Positions 31,881 through 40,789 of a stretch of 56,642 nucleotides of DNA are shown one piece after another (the stretch's first letter is position 1; every line of letters starts with the position of its first letter). The translations under genes were made by a program, and so were the position numbers. Origin of the DNA: Fusobacterium sp. (GTDB taxonomy: Bacteria; Fusobacteriota; Fusobacteriia; Fusobacteriales; Fusobacteriaceae); NCBI RefSeq assembly GCF_029258315.1, contig NZ_JARHZE010000119.1, positions 1 to 56,642 on the forward strand, read 5' to 3'. The notes under the pieces are model-generated. The model was not told where the DNA came from. It saw only the letters and a program-made list of their open reading frames with translations, and did no database searches.

Positions 31881-34800
31881 TTAAAGTCTTGAAATATCAA
31901 ATACTTCTAATTTATCTTCTTCTAAGTGTTCTTTTTCCATTTTTATAACAGCTTTTAAAGTATCTATTGAAGTTAATACCTCTACTCCATACTCAGTAGC
32001 AGTTCTTCTCATTCTGAATCCATCTCTTTGAGCGTCGTTTGCTTTTGTAGGAGTGTTGATTAATAAATCAACTTTTTTATTCATAAGAATAGTTAAGATA
32101 TTTGGCTCTTCTTCTCCAATTCTTCTTACAACTTCTGATTTTATTCCGTGCTCAGATAGGAATTTATTTGTTCCAGCAGTTGCAAATATTTCACAGTTAA
32201 GATCTATTAATTCTCTAACGATTGGTAAAAACTCTTCTTTATCTTTATCTCTGATTGTAAGTAAAACTTTTTTACCAGAAACTTTATTAACTCTTTTTCC
32301 ACCAAGTAATCCTTTGTAGATAGCTTCTTCTACTGTATGTCCTACTCCTAAAACCTCTCCTGTCGATCTCATTTCAGGTCCTAATGAAACTTCAACTTCT
32401 GATAATTTTTCTGTTGAGAATACTGGTACTTTTACAGCCACTAGATTTGGTTTTTTGTAGATTCCTGTTCCATAACCAATTTCTTCTAATGTTTCTCCTA
32501 AAATTATTCTTGTTGCAATTTCAATTACAGGAAGTCCAGATATTTTTGAAATATATGGAACTGTTCTTGAAGATCTTGGGTTAACCTCAATTACATATAA
32601 CTCATTTTCATAAGCTATAAATTGAATGTTCATCATACCTTTAGTTTCTAAAGCTTGAGATATTTTCTTAGTTATTTCTAATACTTTCTCCTCAGTTCCT
32701 TCATATAAGTTTTGTTGAGGATAGATTGTTATTGAGTCTCCAGAGTGAACTCCTGCTCTCTCTAAGTGTTCCATTATTCCTGGGATTAATACATCTTTAC
32801 CGTCACAAATAGCGTCTACTTCTAATTCAATTCCGTTTAAATATTTATCTATTAATACTGGATTTTCTGGGTCTCTGTCAAATGAAGATTCAAGATATTT
32901 TACTAAGTTATATTCATCGTGACAAATTTCCATTCCTTGTCCACCAAGTACATAAGATGGTCTTACAAGTACTGGATATTTAATTTCATTTGCAATTTCA
33001 ATTCCGTGGTTGATATCCCAAACTGCTCTTCCTTTAGGTCTTTTTATATCTAATTTTTCCATCATTTCTTCGAATTTTTCTCTGTCTTCTGCTTCGTCTA
33101 TTTTCTCAGCTGAAGTTCCAAGAATTTTTATTCCTCTATCTGATAAAGCATTAGCAAGTTTTATAGCAGTTTGTCCTCCAAATTGAAGTACAACTCCTTC
33201 TGGTTTTTCTTTTTCTATTATATTTAAAACATCTTCTAATATTAATGGTTCAAAGTATAATCTGTCTGCTGTATTGTAGTCAGTTGAAACTGTTTCTGGG
33301 TTGTTATTGATTATGATACTTTCAATTCCCATTTTCTTTAATGTTTTAATTGAGTGAACTGTACAGTAGTCAAACTCAATACCTTGTCCAATTCTTATTG
33401 GTCCTGAACCTATAACGATTATCTTTCTTTTATTTTCTACTTCTACTTCATCGTGCTCATCATATGTTGAATATAAGTAAGAAGTTTGTGCTTTAAATTC
33501 AGCAGCACAAGTATCAACTCTTTTATAAGCTGGTATTATGTTGTGCTCTTCTCTTTTGCTTCTGATATCGTCTTCAGTAACTCCCATAAGTTCTGCTATT
33601 CCTTTATCAGAGAATCCTTTTTTCTTTAATTTTCTTAAATATTCAGGATCTAAATCTTTGAATTTAGTTTTCTTTAATATTTCTTCTTGTCTTACTAACC
33701 ACTCTATTTTTTCCATAAAGAATTTGTCTATACCAGTGATTTTTTGTAATTTTTCTTTTATATATCCTCTTCTTAACATTTCAGCAACTACGAAAATTCT
33801 TTCGTCGTCAGGTCTTACAACTGCTTTCTTTAATTCTTCCATTGTAAGTTTTTTAACTGCTGGATGCTCAAGGTTAAATCTTCCAATTTCTAGAGATTTT
33901 AATCCTTTTAAGAATGCTGCCTCAAAGTTATCTCCTATTGACATAACCTCTCCAGTAGCCATCATTTTTGTTCCTAAAACTTTGTTTGCATTTCTGAATT
34001 TATCAAATGGCCATTTAGGAATTTTTGCAACTATATAGTCAATTGTTGGTTCTGTACAAGCATAAGACTCTCCAGTAACTTCATTTATTATTTCATCAAG
34101 TGTATATCCTAAAGCAAGTTTTGTAGATACTCTAGCTATTGGGTAACCAGTTGCTTTAGATGCAAGAGCTGACGAACGAGAAACTCTTGGGTTAATTTCG
34201 ATTATAGCATATTTCATTGATTTTGGGTGAAGAGCAAATTGAACGTTACATCCTCCGATTACTCCTACCTCATCTAATATTTTTAAAGCTGATTTTTTAA
34301 GCATTACTGCTTCTTTGTGAGATAATGTTTGAGTTGGAGCAACAACTATTGAGTCTCCTGTATGGATTCCAACTGGGTCAACGTTTTCCATATTACAAAT
34401 TGTAATACAGTTTCCATTTTTATCTCTCATTACTTCATATTCTATCTCTTTCCATCCAAGGATAGATTTTTCTATTAAAACTTGTCCAACTCTTGAAAGT
34501 TTTAATCCTTTTAATAATATTTCTTCTAATTCTTTTTGAGTGTAAGCGATTCCTCCACCAGTTCCACCCATTGTATAAGCTGGTCTTACAACTACTGGAT
34601 ATCCGATTTCTTTTGCAACTTCAATTCCATGCTCTAGACTTTCTACGATTTCACTCTCTATACAAGGCTCTCCTATTTTCTCCATTGTTTCTCTGAAGAT
34701 TTCTCTGTCTTCACCTTTTTTTATAGACTCAACAGAAGTTCCGATTACTCTTACATTATATTTTTCTAATATTCCTTTTTCTGTTAATTCAACAGCAAGG

Positions 34801-35087
34801 TTTAATGCAGTTTGTACTCCCATTCCAGCAAGTAATGAGTCTGGTCTTTCTTTAGCTATTACTTTTTCAACAAACTCAGCTGTAATTGGCTCTATATATA
34901 TTCTATCTGCAACAGCTTTATCTGTCATTATTGTAGCTGGGTTAGAGTTTATTAATACAACTTCTACACCTTCATTTTTTAAAGTTTCACAAGCTTGTGT
35001 TCCTGAATAGTCAAACTCTGCTGCTTGTCCTATTATAATTGGTCCTGAACCTATTACTAATACTTTTTTTATTGATTTATCTAACAT
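31881..35087 (-). CDS. carB: Carbamoyl-phosphate synthase large subunit
   Basis: 1068 aa, full length. Makes carbamoyl phosphate from bicarbonate, 2 ATP and ammonia (normally passed from CarA). Order: first ATP-grasp carboxyphosphate domain (to ~400), oligomerisation domain (~400-550), second ATP-grasp carbamate domain (~555-935) and a C-terminal MGS-like allosteric domain (~935-1068). Conserved ATP-grasp elements are intact: [33 protein letters not shown] and [18 protein letters not shown] chose the second of two adjacent ATGs because AGGAGG is 5 bp upstream of it. It lies 56 bp after carA. With the glutaminase of CarA apparently inactive, this subunit may run on free ammonia. Confidence 0.96.
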
Positions 35088-35143
35088 CATTTCCTCCTAA
35101 AATTGTTTCTTCAAAAATATATGCTAAAATATTTAAAAATTTA

Positions 35144-36178
35144 TTAAACAAGTTTTAAAAAGTTTTCAAAAACATCGTTTGACTCTTTGTATAAGTCAGG
35201 CATATATTGAACTGTAACTATTTTTAAGTTATCGTTTTTCATTCCTTCTATTGTCTTAACGTTTACTCCTTGATGAGTCATTTCAAAATCTTTAGGAAGT
35301 TCTTCAACTACATATCCTGTATTTTGAGCTGTTATAATAACTTTTCCTGTTGCAAGGTTTTTAACTGGGTATCCACCTCTATGTCCATATTTTAATTTTG
35401 CTACTTTTCCTCCAAGAGCAAGAGCGATTACTTGGTGTCCTAAAACTTCTCCAAACATTTGAATTTTTCCAGCTAATTTTTTTATCTCTTCCATAGTCTC
35501 AGTTAAGTTTTCTGGATTTCCAGGTCCGTTTGAAACTACTAAAGCTGATAGATTAGCAGCTAAGATTTCTTCTGCTTTTGTATTGTATGGGAATACAACA
35601 ACATTAAATCCTCTTTCTTTCATATATTCAAGAGTACTATTTTTAACTCCTAAATCAAGAACTCCTATTCTTTTTCCTTCATTAGCTATTTCATAAACTT
35701 CTTTTGTGCTTACTTCAGCAACAGCATTTTTATTTGAAAATTTTTCAAATCTTTCTTGGATCTCTTTCTTAGTTAAATCCTCAGCTGTTATGATAGCTTT
35801 CATAGCTCCATTATCTCTTATTATTTGAGTAAGGTATCTTGTATCGATTCCTTTAAATCCTGTTACATTGTATTGTCTTAAGAAACCGTCTAAAGTCATT
35901 TCACATCTAAAGTTGTTTGGTAATTTTGCATCTTCTTTTATGATTAATGCTCTTAATTGAACTTTATCTGATTCCATATCATCAGTATTTATCCCATAAT
36001 TTCCTATCATTGGATATGTCATTGTAATCATCATTCCATGATTTGCTGGATCTGTTAATATTTCTTGATATCCTGTCATTCCAGTATTAAAAGATATCTC
36101 TCCTACAGTATCTGCTAACTCACCAAAAATTTTTCCTTCAAAAACTTTTCCATTTTCAAGAATTAATTTTCCCTTCAT
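35144..36178 (-). CDS. carA: Carbamoyl-phosphate synthase small subunit with a lost glutaminase triad
   Basis: 344 aa. The small subunit normally hydrolyses glutamine and feeds ammonia to CarB. Fold and order are right: CPSase_sm domain (1-140, FNTGMTGYQEILTDP) and class I amidotransferase domain (170-344, VVSNGPGNP). But the catalytic residues are changed. The nucleophile motif GICLGHQ reads GEVLGHQ (243-249), so Cys is Val245. The HPE motif reads YMPDL (325-329), so His is Met326 and Glu is Asp328. QNHG, which contacts glutamine, reads QNTG (T287). I checked the reading frame against the DNA at each site. The gene is otherwise intact and coupled to carB, so it is probably kept as a structural or allosteric partner of an ammonia-dependent enzyme. 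GGGAGG precedes the ATG. Confidence 0.95.
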   Translation of the reverse strand: MKGKLILENGKVFEGKIFGELADTVGEISFNTGMTGYQEILTDPANHGMMITMTYPMIGNYGINTDDMESDKVQLRALIIKEDAKLPNNFRCEMTLDGFLRQYNVTGFKGIDTRYLTQIIRDNGAMKAIITAEDLTKKEIQERFEKFSNKNAVAEVSTKEVYEIANEGKRIGVLDLGVKNSTLEYMKERGFNVVVFPYNTKAEEILAANLSALVVSNGPGNPENLTETMEEIKKLAGKIQMFGEVLGHQVIALALGGKVAKLKYGHRGGYPVKNLATGKVIITAQNTGYVVEELPKDFEMTHQGVNVKTIEGMKNDNLKIVTVQYMPDLYKESNDVFENFLKLV

Positions 36179-36197
36179 TAAAGACCTCCCAAAATTT

Positions 36198-36233
36198 ATA
36201 AAAAAGAGATATAACTAAAATAGTCATATCTCT
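36198..36233 (-). terminator. Attenuator hairpin upstream of carA
   Basis: 13-bp stem AGAGATATGACTA / TAGTTATATCTCT on the minus strand (36233-36221 and 36217-36205) with one G-U pair, a tiny loop and a T6 run. It lies before carA, not after a gene, so it can only act as an attenuator. Its 5' arm overlaps the last two bases of the leader-peptide stop codon. Confidence 0.85.
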
Positions 36234-36339
36234 AATTAAAATTGAAAAAAATAGAAAATTTAAAAAGATTAAAAAGATCGTCTTTTTTTATTAAAAATGC
36301 TGTATTTATCTTATTAAAAAAGCCATTTAATCTCTTCAT
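36232..36339 (-). CDS. Leader peptide of the carAB operon (U-rich, pyrBI-type)
   Basis: A 35-codon ORF beginning at an ATG with an ideal AGGAGG ribosome binding site and ending at TAG inside the attenuator hairpin. The peptide begins MKRLNGFFNKINTAFLIKK, has no recognisable domain, and contains nine Phe residues, most in its last third. There the RNA is one long series of U-tracts (CUUUUU twice, then UUUUUUU) just before the hairpin. E. coli pyrBI uses the same design: when UTP is scarce, RNA polymerase stalls on the U-tracts, the translating ribosome catches up and blocks the terminator. The Phe codons are probably a by-product of the U-runs. It has its own promoter at 36370-36398. Confidence 0.75.
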   Translation of the reverse strand: MKRLNGFFNKINTAFLIKKDDLFNLFKFSIFFNFN

Positions 36340-36369
36340 TTTTTCCTCCTAAATTAATTTTCGAAGATT

Positions 36370-36398
36370 ATTCTACTATAAGTTTAATTTTTTGTCAA
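36370..36398 (-). promoter_or_regulatory. Promoter of the leader peptide-carAB operon
   Basis: Consensus TTGACA (36398-36393), 17-bp spacer, TAGAAT (36375-36370) on the minus strand. The -35 box lies inside the last codons of the helicase-fusion gene. Confidence 0.8.
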
Positions 36399-39300
36399 GA
36401 GATTTTTCTTTTATTTTTTTATCTATCTCCCTTAACTTTTCTTTTAATTCTTTATTAGTTTCCCCTATTATTCTTATATATATTTTTTTCATTATCTCTT
36501 TTTTTCTCATTTTGATCGAATTTTTATCATCAAGCACCAAAATCCTCATAAAAAGATTTTCTATTATTTTTTCATTTAAGAAATTTATATTCAATTTTTT
36601 TAAGAAAATTTTAAAATATTTTACTTGATAATTTTCAATACAGACATCTAAAGGGTTAGTTTCTATACTTGCATAGTTATCTTCTACTAAATTTATTTTT
36701 AAAATTAAATCTGTTAATTGTCTATTTTTATTTTTTAAAGAAAACTCAACAGGAGTTTCTACTTTTGAATTAAATACATATTCATACTCTTCATCAAAGA
36801 AATAATTATATAATTCTATTGCATTGGAAAAATTTTCCTTTGCTATATAAGTTAATATATCATATTTTCCCTGAACTTTTATATTTTTCTTAGCTCCTAA
36901 GAACAGAAGCATATTTAAGATATCAATATCATTTAATTTTAAACTATTAAATAGTGGAGTTAATTTATTTTTATCGAAGGTATTTATATCTTTTTTACCT
37001 AAAAGTTTTTCTATTACCTCTATTTTATCATTTACACCCTCTATTTTATTAAATTTTTCCTCTAATAATTTTCTTCTCATCTTTGAAATTCCAATATAAT
37101 TTGAAGCTTTTTTATAAAAGTTAAGTGCTAAAGAATAATTTTGTTGTACTTCATAGATCTCAGCCAATATATTATTCTCTTGTTTTTTTCCAAATATAGC
37201 CACAGCTCTATCCAACTCTTTTTTACTAAATCTATTTTCACTTAATTTTTCTAAAAATATTTTTTTTATCTCAGCGTATCTATATGGGGTGTCAAAAGTT
37301 TCAACTGAATATATCAAACTTTTTATATATTCCTCTTTTTTTAATGTTGTATCTATTATTAAATTTTCATAAATCTTTCTTTTATTTTCTAATCTGTTCT
37401 CACTTATCTTTTCAAGAGCTACTTTATAATCTCCATTTTCAATATCCTCTTCTATATTTTTCTCAAGTATCCAAGTAGGGTATCCTGCCATTTCAAAAGC
37501 CTTTTGTGCCTCTTCATAGTTTTCAACATTATAAAGTCTTATTCCCTCTTCTAGCCATTCCTCTTTATTTGATATATTTATCTCTTTTGTTATTTTTTCT
37601 TTTGTTTCATTATTAACTACTTTTATAAAATTCTTTATCTTTTCTAATAGAAGATTACCTTCTAGTTTATCCTCCATTATAATCAGATTTTTTTTACATC
37701 TAGTTATTCCAACATAAAACAGATTAAAATATTTCCTATATCTTTGATCTCTTTTTACATCCTTATTAAATATTTTTTCCCAAGCAAATAGATTTGTTGT
37801 TATCAAGTTTAGACATACAACATTATCATATTCAAGCCCCTTTATCTCATCTATACTAAACACTCTCATGTGTATATCTGAATATCTATCCAGTTTATAC
37901 TTTTCCTCTTTCGAAGAAACTATAATAGCGTATTTAACGTCTTTCTGCATAGTTTTTAAAAGTTCATAATCAGGTGACATCAAAGTAATTTTTCCCTTAT
38001 CAACTATAAAATTTTCTTTATAATCCTTTACACCTAAGTTCCCTATATATTCCTGTCTTAACTCCGTTAAAAAGTTAGCAAGTTCAACAATATCTTTTGA
38101 GTTTCTGTAATTTTTACTTAAAATAACCTCTTGATTTTGAATTTTTTTAGTAAAATAATAATTTCTAAGCCTTTCAAAACTAAATGAATTAAAGTTTATC
38201 ATCTGATGAATATCTCCAGCTAATAAGATATTTCTATAATCATTTACTAAATTCAACATAAAATAAATTTCTACCTCTGTAAAATCCTGTATCTCATCTA
38301 CAACTAAAAAATCATATTTTATATCAAGTCCTATACTTCTCACTGCTAAATCATTCATATCGTATAAATCATTTTCTTTTTTCCAGTTCTCATATTTTTC
38401 AGCTATCCTATAAATAAATTTCTTTTCTTCAACAGTCAGCAACGAATAGTTTTTATTTAACTTTTCATACTCATCAAAAGAGATAAACTTTTCATTTATA
38501 TCTCTGCTCCAGTTATCAGTTCTCTCTTTAAACATTAAACCTTTTAATATTCCCATTATTTCAAAATAGATATTAAAATCCTCTATCTTCATTTTTTTTC
38601 TATCTGGAAATGAAAAAGCTAAAAACTCTTTAAATCTTTTTAGTCTTACAATTTTTCTTGTATCTATTTTTAAAACTTTTTTATAAAACTCTCTTGGAGT
38701 ATAAAATTCAGTTATTTTTTTATCATCTTTATTTCTAAAAAGATTATACTGCTCCTCTATGCTGTCTTTTAAAAGTTTATTTCCTGTAAAATATACTACT
38801 TTCTTTATTCCATATATATTTTGATATTCCTCTAAATTTAAAATTTTTCTTATGGTAATTGTACTTTTTCCACTTCCAGCACTTCCAGCTACAAGCAGAG
38901 GTGTGGGCTCTTTCAAAGCCTCATATTGCTCATCATTTAAATAATAATAAAAATATTTATTGCTGTGTCCAACCTTTTTAAATTCACCATCAGAGGTAAC
39001 TTCATAACTTATTACCTGATTATAATCAAGATAAATCTCCTGAGGAATCTCTTCTTTTTCCTCATCTATAAATTCATTTTTATCTATCTTAAAATCTCTT
39101 ACTTCTTTTATATCTGCATTTTTTCCCCTCTTTACTCCTCTATCATGAGTTGAATAAAGAATAAAAGTTATTTTTTCCTCTTCATCACCTCTCCTATCTA
39201 AAGAAAAGAAAATTCTATCTCCATTATTTATTCTAAATTCAAATCTATTTTCTATCCCATTTATTTTTTTTATCCAAAATCCTTTAGGAATATTTCTTAT

Positions 39301-39414
39301 ATTATTTATATTTCTTAAAATTTCTTGATAAAAATAATATAAATTTTTTTCTATTTCCTCTATTTTTTCATTTTTTATATTTTTAAAAAAATTCTCTCTT
39401 ATTAAAAATTTCAT
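36376..39414 (-). CDS. UvrD-type SF1 helicase fused to RelE-like, TPR-like and ankyrin-like regions
   Basis: 1012 aa, unusual architecture. Residues ~40-95 resemble a RelE/ParE toxin fold (IENRFEFRINNGDRIFFSL, then ITFILYSTHDRG). An SF1 helicase core follows: Walker A GSAGSGKST (177-185), DEIQD (373-377), LAGDIHQMI, NYRNSKDIVELAN and motif VI YVGITRCKKNL (567-577). After ~610 come TPR-like helices (GIRLYNVENYEEAQKAFEMAGY, YSLALNFYKKASNY), then ankyrin-like repeats (TPLFNSLKLNDIDILNMLLFLGAKKN). I chose the ATG at 39414 because GAGAGGA lies upstream; an earlier GTG at 39444 has no such site. It has its own promoter. Function unknown; RNA or DNA surveillance or defence is conceivable. Confidence 0.82.
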   Translation of the reverse strand: MKFLIRENFFKNIKNEKIEEIEKNLYYFYQEILRNINNIRNIPKGFWIKKINGIENRFEFRINNGDRIFFSLDRRGDEEEKITFILYSTHDRGVKRGKNADIKEVRDFKIDKNEFIDEEKEEIPQEIYLDYNQVISYEVTSDGEFKKVGHSNKYFYYYLNDEQYEALKEPTPLLVAGSAGSGKSTITIRKILNLEEYQNIYGIKKVVYFTGNKLLKDSIEEQYNLFRNKDDKKITEFYTPREFYKKVLKIDTRKIVRLKRFKEFLAFSFPDRKKMKIEDFNIYFEIMGILKGLMFKERTDNWSRDINEKFISFDEYEKLNKNYSLLTVEEKKFIYRIAEKYENWKKENDLYDMNDLAVRSIGLDIKYDFLVVDEIQDFTEVEIYFMLNLVNDYRNILLAGDIHQMINFNSFSFERLRNYYFTKKIQNQEVILSKNYRNSKDIVELANFLTELRQEYIGNLGVKDYKENFIVDKGKITLMSPDYELLKTMQKDVKYAIIVSSKEEKYKLDRYSDIHMRVFSIDEIKGLEYDNVVCLNLITTNLFAWEKIFNKDVKRDQRYRKYFNLFYVGITRCKKNLIIMEDKLEGNLLLEKIKNFIKVVNNETKEKITKEINISNKEEWLEEGIRLYNVENYEEAQKAFEMAGYPTWILEKNIEEDIENGDYKVALEKISENRLENKRKIYENLIIDTTLKKEEYIKSLIYSVETFDTPYRYAEIKKIFLEKLSENRFSKKELDRAVAIFGKKQENNILAEIYEVQQNYSLALNFYKKASNYIGISKMRRKLLEEKFNKIEGVNDKIEVIEKLLGKKDINTFDKNKLTPLFNSLKLNDIDILNMLLFLGAKKNIKVQGKYDILTYIAKENFSNAIELYNYFFDEEYEYVFNSKVETPVEFSLKNKNRQLTDLILKINLVEDNYASIETNPLDVCIENYQVKYFKIFLKKLNINFLNEKIIENLFMRILVLDDKNSIKMRKKEIMKKIYIRIIGETNKELKEKLREIDKKIKEKSLDKKLNL

Positions 39415-39449
39415 ATTTAAAGTCCTCTCATTTTTTCTATTCACTATTA

Positions 39450-39477
39450 ATTATACTATAATTTAATTTTTTATCAA
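39450..39477 (-). promoter_or_regulatory. Promoter of the helicase-fusion gene
   Basis: TTGATA (39477-39472), 16 bp, TATAAT (39455-39450) on the minus strand, about 35 bp upstream of the chosen ATG. Confidence 0.65.
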
Positions 39478-39535
39478 ATTTTTTTAATCACTTTAATTCA
39501 TTTTAAATAATTCCTGACTTTTTTAATAAAAAAAG

Positions 39536-39564
39536 TTGACTTTTTCATAATTTTAAATTATACT
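39536..39564 (+). promoter_or_regulatory. Promoter of the DAACS symporter gene
   Basis: TTGACT (39536-39541), 17 bp, TATACT (39559-39564) on the plus strand, 43 bp before the start codon. Confidence 0.75.
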
Positions 39565-39607
39565 TAGGGTATAGTTACTAATTTTTTATTTTTAGGGAGG
39601 TTTTTAT

Positions 39608-40789
39608 ATGTCAGAAGAAGTAAAAACAAAAAATAAAGATTACCTAATAATAAAACTTATAATTGGAGTTATTTTAGGTTTTATTGTAGGAATCTTTTCA
39701 AATCAACAGATTATTGGAGTAATTAATACTATTAAGTTTATCCTTGGACAGATTATATTATTTGTTGTTCCTTTAATTATTCTAGGGTTCATCACACCTG
39801 CTATTACACAAATGAAATCAAATGCAAGTAAAATGCTTGGAACTATGCTTGGATTATCTTATGTATCATCTGTTGGAGCAGCTTTTATGTCAATGGTAGC
39901 TGGCTATGCTTTAATTCCTTTATTAAATATTGAAAGAAATAAAGAAGTTGCAAAAGTTTTACCAGACCTAATATTTAAAGTTGAGGTACCACAAATAATG
40001 TCTGTTATGAGTGCTCTTGTGTTATCTATCTTTCTTGGACTTGCTGTTATTTGGACAAATTCTAAAAAAGTTGAAGAACTTTTAATTGAGTTTGGAAATA
40101 TTACTCTATCTATTGTTAATAAAATTATAATTCCAATTTTACCTTTCTTTATTGCTAGTACTTTTGCTACACTTGCATACGAAGGTAAAATTATTAATCA
40201 ACTTCCTGTTTTCTTTAAGGTTATTATTATAGTTTTAATTGGACATTTCATTTGGTTATTTATTCTTTATACAATTGGAGGTATTGTTAATAAATGTAAC
40301 CCACTTGATGTTCTTAGACACTACGGACCTGCTTATTTAACAGCAGTTGGTACAATGTCATCTGCAGCTACTTTACCAGTTGCTTTAAAATGTGCTAGAA
40401 AATCTCCAGTTTTAGATGAAGATGTTGTAAACTTTGGGGTTCCATTAGGTTCTAATACTCACCTTTGTGGTTCTGTTTTAACTGAGGTTTTCTTTGTTAT
40501 GACAGTTTCTAAAATTTTATATGGACAAATTCCTAGCCTTGGAACAATGCTACTTTTCATAGTTTTACTTGGAGTTTTTGCAGTTGGAGCTCCTGGAGTT
40601 CCCGGAGGAACTGTTATGGCTTCTCTTGGTATCATTTACTCTGTATTGGGATTTAAAGAGGATGGAACTGCACTTATGTTAACTGTATTTGCTTTACAAG
40701 ATAGTTTTGGTACTGCTTGTAATGTTACTGGTGACGGTGCTTTAACTATGATATTAAATGGATTATTCAAGAAAAGAAATAATAATTAA
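39608..40789 (+). CDS. Dicarboxylate/amino acid:cation symporter (DAACS family)
   Basis: 393-aa membrane protein of the glutamate/dicarboxylate/serine transporter fold. Hairpin 1 carries the serine-rich GTMSSAATLPVAL, helix 7 the variant PLGSNTHLCGS where most members have a TxMDG motif, hairpin 2 is GAPGVPGGTVMA, and helix 8 is DSFGTACNVTGDGA. Unlike GltP/GltT, the NMDGT Na+ site is changed (NTHLCG), so substrate and ion use may differ. Substrate could be an amino acid or dicarboxylate. GGGAGG precedes the ATG. It stands alone between its promoter and a bidirectional terminator. Confidence 0.9.
   Translation: MSEEVKTKNKDYLIIKLIIGVILGFIVGIFSNQQIIGVINTIKFILGQIILFVVPLIILGFITPAITQMKSNASKMLGTMLGLSYVSSVGAAFMSMVAGYALIPLLNIERNKEVAKVLPDLIFKVEVPQIMSVMSALVLSIFLGLAVIWTNSKKVEELLIEFGNITLSIVNKIIIPILPFFIASTFATLAYEGKIINQLPVFFKVIIIVLIGHFIWLFILYTIGGIVNKCNPLDVLRHYGPAYLTAVGTMSSAATLPVALKCARKSPVLDEDVVNFGVPLGSNTHLCGSVLTEVFFVMTVSKILYGQIPSLGTMLLFIVLLGVFAVGAPGVPGGTVMASLGIIYSVLGFKEDGTALMLTVFALQDSFGTACNVTGDGALTMILNGLFKKRNNN

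Follow-up and report, generated by a model that had tools for sequence, protein, structure and literature searches.

How are the carbamoyl-phosphate synthase genes carAB controlled in a member of the Fusobacteriaceae, a family outside the Proteobacteria, in whose genome no PyrR is found? The question is raised by a stretch of 56,642 nucleotides from Fusobacterium sp. (contig NZ_JARHZE010000119.1), the whole of which is called the window here and whose source genome (G000) comprises 1.67 Mb and is 86% complete. An earlier note, made from the letters of this stretch, had described a leader peptide and an attenuator upstream of carA and likened them to those of pyrBI in Escherichia coli. Its observation is confirmed, and its interpretation is supported wherever the sequence can test it, with a scope wider than the note supposed. 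The carAB leader is most probably a pyrBI-like attenuator, in which transcription is coupled to the ribosome and sensitive to uridine triphosphate (UTP), the UTP response being the part that we infer. The components of the locus are the following:

36370..36398, minus strand: promoter TTGACA-17-TAGAAT, with the -35 hexamer TTGACA at 36398-36393, a 17-bp spacer and the -10 hexamer TAGAAT at 36375-36370.
36345..36350, minus strand: leader Shine-Dalgarno (SD) sequence AGGAGG, 5 nucleotides upstream of the ATG at 36339.
36232..36339, minus strand: leader open reading frame (ORF) of 35 codons plus TAG, with ATG at 36339 and TAG at 36234-36232, encoding the peptide MKRLNGFFNKINTAFLIKKDDLFNLFKFSIFFNFN.
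36234..36293, minus strand: U-rich stretch of 60 nucleotides upstream of the hairpin (T fraction 0.53; U runs of 4 to 7), the proposed UTP-sensitive pause region.
36205..36233, minus strand: intrinsic terminator hairpin, the putative attenuator, with 13 pairs and a loop of 3.
36200..36204, minus strand: terminator T tail, T5 after the stem.
35144..36178, minus strand: carA, carbamoyl-phosphate synthase small subunit, with ATG at 36178 and degenerate glutaminase residues.
31881..35090, minus strand: carB, carbamoyl-phosphate synthase large subunit, after carA.

The promoter and the 35-codon ORF with its AGGAGG site are present as the note had described them. Its perfect 13-bp terminator with a T6 tail needs amendment: the stem does have 13 pairs, and two bases belong both to its 5' arm and to the leader TAG, but only 12 pairs are Watson-Crick, the other being G-U, and the tail is T5 unless the last stem base is counted, which makes it T6. 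The upstream gene (36376-39444, minus strand) overlaps the promoter: its 3' end contains the -35 hexamer, and its stop codon falls in the spacer. No Rfam model reached its gathering score anywhere in the window, and a riboswitch or other known RNA family was rejected as an explanation.

The hairpin by itself is unremarkable, since a terminator scan of positions 34000-40000 gave one match while shuffles of these 6 kb of AT-rich sequence gave a mean of 1.2. In the same interval the leader promoter is one of two promoter matches at 11 of 12 positions. The T fraction of the 60 nucleotides preceding the carA hairpin is the highest among the 23 sites of the window that combine a hairpin with T5 (mean 0.36). 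Judged from sequence, what goes beyond chance is the combination of the parts, together with its occurrence in relatives.

Relatives were sought in 61 genomes of the family and 96 of the order Fusobacteriales, of which 59 and 81 respectively carry CarA (E 0.001, weak amidotransferase matches included). The relaxed scan for leader anatomy required a hairpin followed by at least 5 T's and, upstream, an SD-preceded ORF 20 to 80 codons long, its stop lying between 12 nucleotides before the start of the hairpin 5' arm and 70 nucleotides after it. A stricter scan passed 83 of 114 loci; because it overlooked bulged hairpins, the relaxed counts are reported. Left out of the counts were carA genes cut off where a contig ends or present as fragments (G013, G023 and the second piece in G004) and weak amidotransferase paralogues. 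One separate carA search returned distant carA only (5 loci) and was not used. The pyrB genes of 11 of the 56 pyrB-bearing family genomes are outside the locus set (8 of genus g14 and 3 PyrR genomes); in the 8 genomes of g14 pyrB and carA share a contig, and in seven of these pyrB is the downstream gene.

Conservation in relatives of the leader ORF and of the overlap between its stop and the hairpin had been set beforehand as the test of the proposal, and the test turned out in its favour. The anatomy is found upstream of carA at 59 of 69 loci and upstream of pyrB at 40 of 45. The note had placed the attenuator at carAB, and this stands, but carAB is not its only site: in this genome a second leader, encoding an unrelated peptide, precedes the pyrB-pyrK-pyrD-pyrF-pyrC-pyrE cluster, with a weak SD sequence (GGGGG, 13 nucleotides from the ATG). 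From genus to genus the leader peptides are unrelated and vary greatly, but the anatomy persists. Most relatives have TTGACA and a spacer of 17 bp, most leaders have a strong SD sequence, and frame and stop position are conserved even among diverged leaders. The stop lies upstream of the hairpin 3' end in 86 of 99 leaders and past it in the other 13, among which genus g3 is prominent. In other families of the order, carA has a leader at four loci of genera g20 and g25 (L140-L143, counted in the 69), as do 6 of 20 further pyrB loci.

Two side observations extend the range of these leaders. Four genomes (G031, with locus L158, as well as G032, G034 and G036) have two carA copies, each behind its own different leader. 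In genus g7 a uracil/xanthine permease gene (L169) follows a leader of the same kind, with 44 codons and a stop in the hairpin; permease genes of this family (TIGR00801) were rejected as general members, this being the only clear case in 30 loci under the stricter scan.

Most of the leaderless loci are informative. Those of carA comprise two in a pyrR operon (L068, L069), five directly downstream of an argJ-like gene (L070-L073 and L075, the family match having been tested for one), a carA of a second type (L074, whose short available flank shows no argJ) and two of genus g12 (L042, L055). At pyrB the anatomy is missing from three g12 loci and from L089 and L090, where the gene follows carA on one contig and in the same orientation. 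The exceptions are thus chiefly carA genes that share an operon with pyrR or neighbour argJ, pyrB genes belonging to a carAB operon, and loci of a single genus.

The PyrR protein is found above cut-off in 3 of the 61 family genomes and 3 of the 96 order genomes, all of genus g4, where the operon reads pyrR-pyrB-pyrC-carA and the two scanned carA loci are those without a leader. The PyrR RNA element (RF00515) was detected in g4 twice above and once just below cut-off, with one further weak match in G037. PyrR-dependent attenuation, as in Bacillus, Lactococcus and g4, requires both the protein and the RNA element, and terminates pyr operons in response to uridine nucleotides. Neither component was found in this genome: G000 has no match above the PyrR cut-off, as is also the case for 6 near-complete congeners, and RF00515 is found neither in the window nor elsewhere in the genome. 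The note's proposal of control without PyrR therefore holds here, and PyrR control was rejected for this genome. Replacement of PyrR by leaders is incomplete, genomes of g12 and g21 having neither. Five g21 pyrB loci without PyrR or leader (L194, L195, L199, L200 and L203) share a common upstream stretch of the kind TTTGCAAAT...TATCATAAATTT, which could, from its sequence, be an operator or a promoter.

Specificity was examined by running the relaxed scan on 97 gene starts from the window and eight fetched stretches. A hairpin was found at 22 and a full leader at 8, seven of the latter being carA or pyrB and the eighth another gene with a T-poor ORF; the pyr share is inflated, because the stretches were picked around pyr genes, and the informative figure is the one match among non-pyr starts. 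The stricter scan had given 9 matches, of which 6 are carA or pyrB and 3 are weak others, two of these in a PyrR operon. The counts bear on a constitutive arrangement, in which the hairpin would merely stop polymerases arriving from the upstream gene, with an incidental ORF. In its favour, a hairpin taken alone is at chance level in this AT-rich stretch. It is nevertheless highly improbable, given that a strong promoter stands between the coding sequence of the upstream gene and the hairpin, that diverged leaders keep the SD sequence, the frame and the place of the stop, and that 14 of the 22 control hairpins have no leader ORF while those with one are nearly all at carA or pyrB. On these grounds a mere terminator of the upstream gene was rejected.

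Translation and composition of the leaders were tested on 38 non-redundant leaders. The leader frame is open in all 38 by construction; the other two are open in 3 and 2, and dinucleotide shuffles predict 2.3. In 19 related pairs the ratio of nonsynonymous to synonymous differences (pN/pS) is 0.47 in frame (0.52 by a second method) vs 0.62 and 0.74 in the other frames. This mild signal, the closed alternative frames and the strong SD sequences favour translation of the leader, and the same sequence comparison favours a peptide whose own sequence is under little constraint. The T fraction is 0.30 over the first ten codons, as it is at downstream gene starts, and climbs to 0.53 in the last 60 nucleotides, as A falls from 0.48 to 0.34 and G from 0.15 to 0.06, with C constant at 0.07. 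It exceeds 0.40 in 96 of the 99 leaders. T residues in runs of at least 4 number 713, vs 485 +/- 28 for the same peptides written with the codon choice of the downstream genes. The T runs have about the length that the codons impose, and the bias thus lies in U content, with no clear clustering beyond it.

This last point is compatible with a general coupling sensor, in which leader translation would protect the transcript and the signal would be the overall rate of translation or elongation (guanosine tetraphosphate, ppGpp, or growth rate) in place of UTP. Such an anatomy would respond to any change in the speed of ribosome or polymerase, and T-run lengths no greater than codon composition gives would suit it. 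Against it stand the near confinement of the anatomy to carA and pyrB among the control gene starts and a bias to U alone, A falling and C and G being rare. We consider a general sensor unlikely.

The composition of the peptides also bears on amino-acid attenuation, in which the ribosome would stall at the codons of a scarce amino acid, the most frequent being phenylalanine, and so decide whether the terminator forms. The leaders are indeed rich in this residue, with 166 phenylalanines among the last 20 codons of the 38 leaders. This is just 1.23 times the expectation from base composition, which lysine, aspartate, asparagine and serine surpass too; no single amino acid is prominent, and phenylalanine is unconnected to carAB and pyrB. 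Nor does the hairpin 5' arm have a good antiterminator partner upstream in the 38 leaders: the median gain from such pairing is 2.1 kcal/mol vs 13.1 for the hairpin, and in one leader alone does it exceed half. A trp-type antiterminator is therefore disfavoured, and in its absence early stalling would promote termination, the wrong sign for this mechanism. Phenylalanine attenuation was rejected on this ground, and stalling at an amino acid's codons is very unlikely to be what these leaders sense. Absence of an antiterminator structure is typical of the pyrBI type.

Taken whole, the leaders are a little more stably folded than their shuffled versions (mean z -1.0). Three pyrB leaders (L105, L107, L120) carry strong extra structure, with z about -4 to -5, including, in L107, pairing between the U-rich part and the SD region. 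Such structures may be pause hairpins, or masks for the leader SD sequence; a hairpin pause is reported for E. coli pyrL in the consulted part of PMC10135430.

In the attenuator that we favour, RNA polymerase would begin at the promoter and a ribosome would load at the strong leader SD sequence. When UTP is high, the polymerase would outrun the ribosome over the U-rich leader, the hairpin would form and transcription would stop before carA. When UTP is low, the polymerase would slow in the U-rich stretch and the ribosome would catch up and arrive at the stop codon. From there, at or inside the 5' arm, the body of the ribosome would keep the hairpin open and the polymerase would read into carAB. 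The pyrB operon would be governed in the same way by its own copy of the leader, with its unrelated peptide. Pausing, UTP as the signal and blocking by the ribosome are what we infer from this anatomy by analogy.

The model is E. coli pyrL, for which the consulted parts of PMC10135430 and PMC5021804 describe polymerase pausing on the U-rich template at low UTP and a coupled ribosome that blocks the terminator hairpin. The pyrBI leaders of E. coli and Salmonella share with ours a promoter, an SD sequence, a short ORF with U-tracts and an intrinsic terminator before a pyrimidine gene, all without a dedicated regulatory protein. When leader, hairpin and stop of pyrL were examined in E. coli K-12 with the same scripts, the likeness drawn in the note proved good for the general anatomy but not for the layout: the pyrL frame crosses the hairpin, with its stop 43 nucleotides past the start of the 5' arm and 6 before pyrB, whereas the Fusobacterial stop is usually in the hairpin. 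The frame runs through the terminator as in pyrL, a layout feature that we do not take as defining, in the 13 leaders with a stop past the hairpin, that of the window not being one of them. The Fusobacterial leaders would thus work in a pyrBI-like manner in a variant layout. They also differ in belonging to another phylum, in being far more U-rich, in peptides without evident similarity and in having carAB as a target, E. coli carAB being under other controls according to the consulted part of PMC6245113. For Pseudomonas aeruginosa carAB, the portion of PMC4997734 consulted relates a pyrimidine response that requires a leader stem-loop and reports a leader peptide; target, pyrimidine attenuation and leader peptide are thus alike, but that system is also arginine-responsive. 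No run of arginine codons was found in the leader of the window.

Several observations weigh against a UTP-sensitive attenuator of this kind. By the same measure, pyrL has a T fraction of only 0.27 in its last 60 nucleotides, and one Fusobacterial leader (L143) is U-poor (0.18). With codon order permuted, T residues in runs of at least 5 number 451 +/- 27 vs 445 observed, and in runs of at least 4, 664 +/- 22 vs the 713 observed. The peptide frame shows only modest coding constraint, and 7 of the 38 leaders have z below -2, which goes beyond the simple model. In other families of the order, eight carA loci (L144-L151, one being a second copy in g20) and 14 of the 20 pyrB loci, chiefly of g21, have no leader. 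Genus g12 has pyr genes with neither leader nor PyrR, and PyrR was likewise not found in g21 or at the other-family loci that lack a leader.

The gene products on either side of the leader deserve a comment. In the CarA of the window, GEVLGHQ replaces GICLGHQ (Cys to Val) and QYMPD replaces QYHPE (His to Met, Glu to Asp), which abolishes what we take to be the glutaminase triad. The triad is kept in 25 of 30 full-length sequences compared; the same residues are lost in L002, L003 and L013, and in L036 Ser and Leu take the places of Cys and His. Mitochondrial CPS1 is among the PDB matches of this CarA, which may, from its sequence, be part of an ammonia-dependent synthase like CPS1. The carA of L013 (G029, genus g5), 86% identical to that of the window, stands behind a g5-like leader, and it seems from the sequences that carA was exchanged there behind a resident leader. 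The upstream gene encodes a protein of 1022 amino acids that contains a P-loop and a DEIQD motif, looks helicase-like on inspection and has no NCBIfam match.

No description of pyrimidine attenuation in Fusobacteria was found among titles and opening abstract lines of the open-access literature, and a mention in Turnbough's main reviews is possible. A term search of the main text of an F. nucleatum transcriptome study (PMC11005410) gave no carA, pyrB, leader or attenuation, and the (incomplete) gene table in the record of Ilyobacter polytropus plasmid pILYOP01 annotates no leader upstream of carA. A survey of 26 genomes including Fusobacteria describes, in its consulted part, a different carA motif, in beta-proteobacteria (PMC8632094).

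If this reading is true, sensing of UTP by a race between ribosome and polymerase extends to another phylum and to carAB, and about a hundred natural variants become available to probe stop-codon placement and U content vs response. On balance, though with less assurance than for the carAB leader itself, we favour the view that in Fusobacteriales without PyrR the de novo pyrimidine pathway forms a regulon without a regulator. Separate U-rich leader attenuators would serve carAB, including its duplicate copies, the pyrB operon and perhaps the uracil permease of one genus; with the stop inside the hairpin, a ribosome waiting for release would hold the terminator open, and PyrR and leaders would replace each other within the family. 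Repeated leaders would then govern an entire pathway without any regulatory protein.
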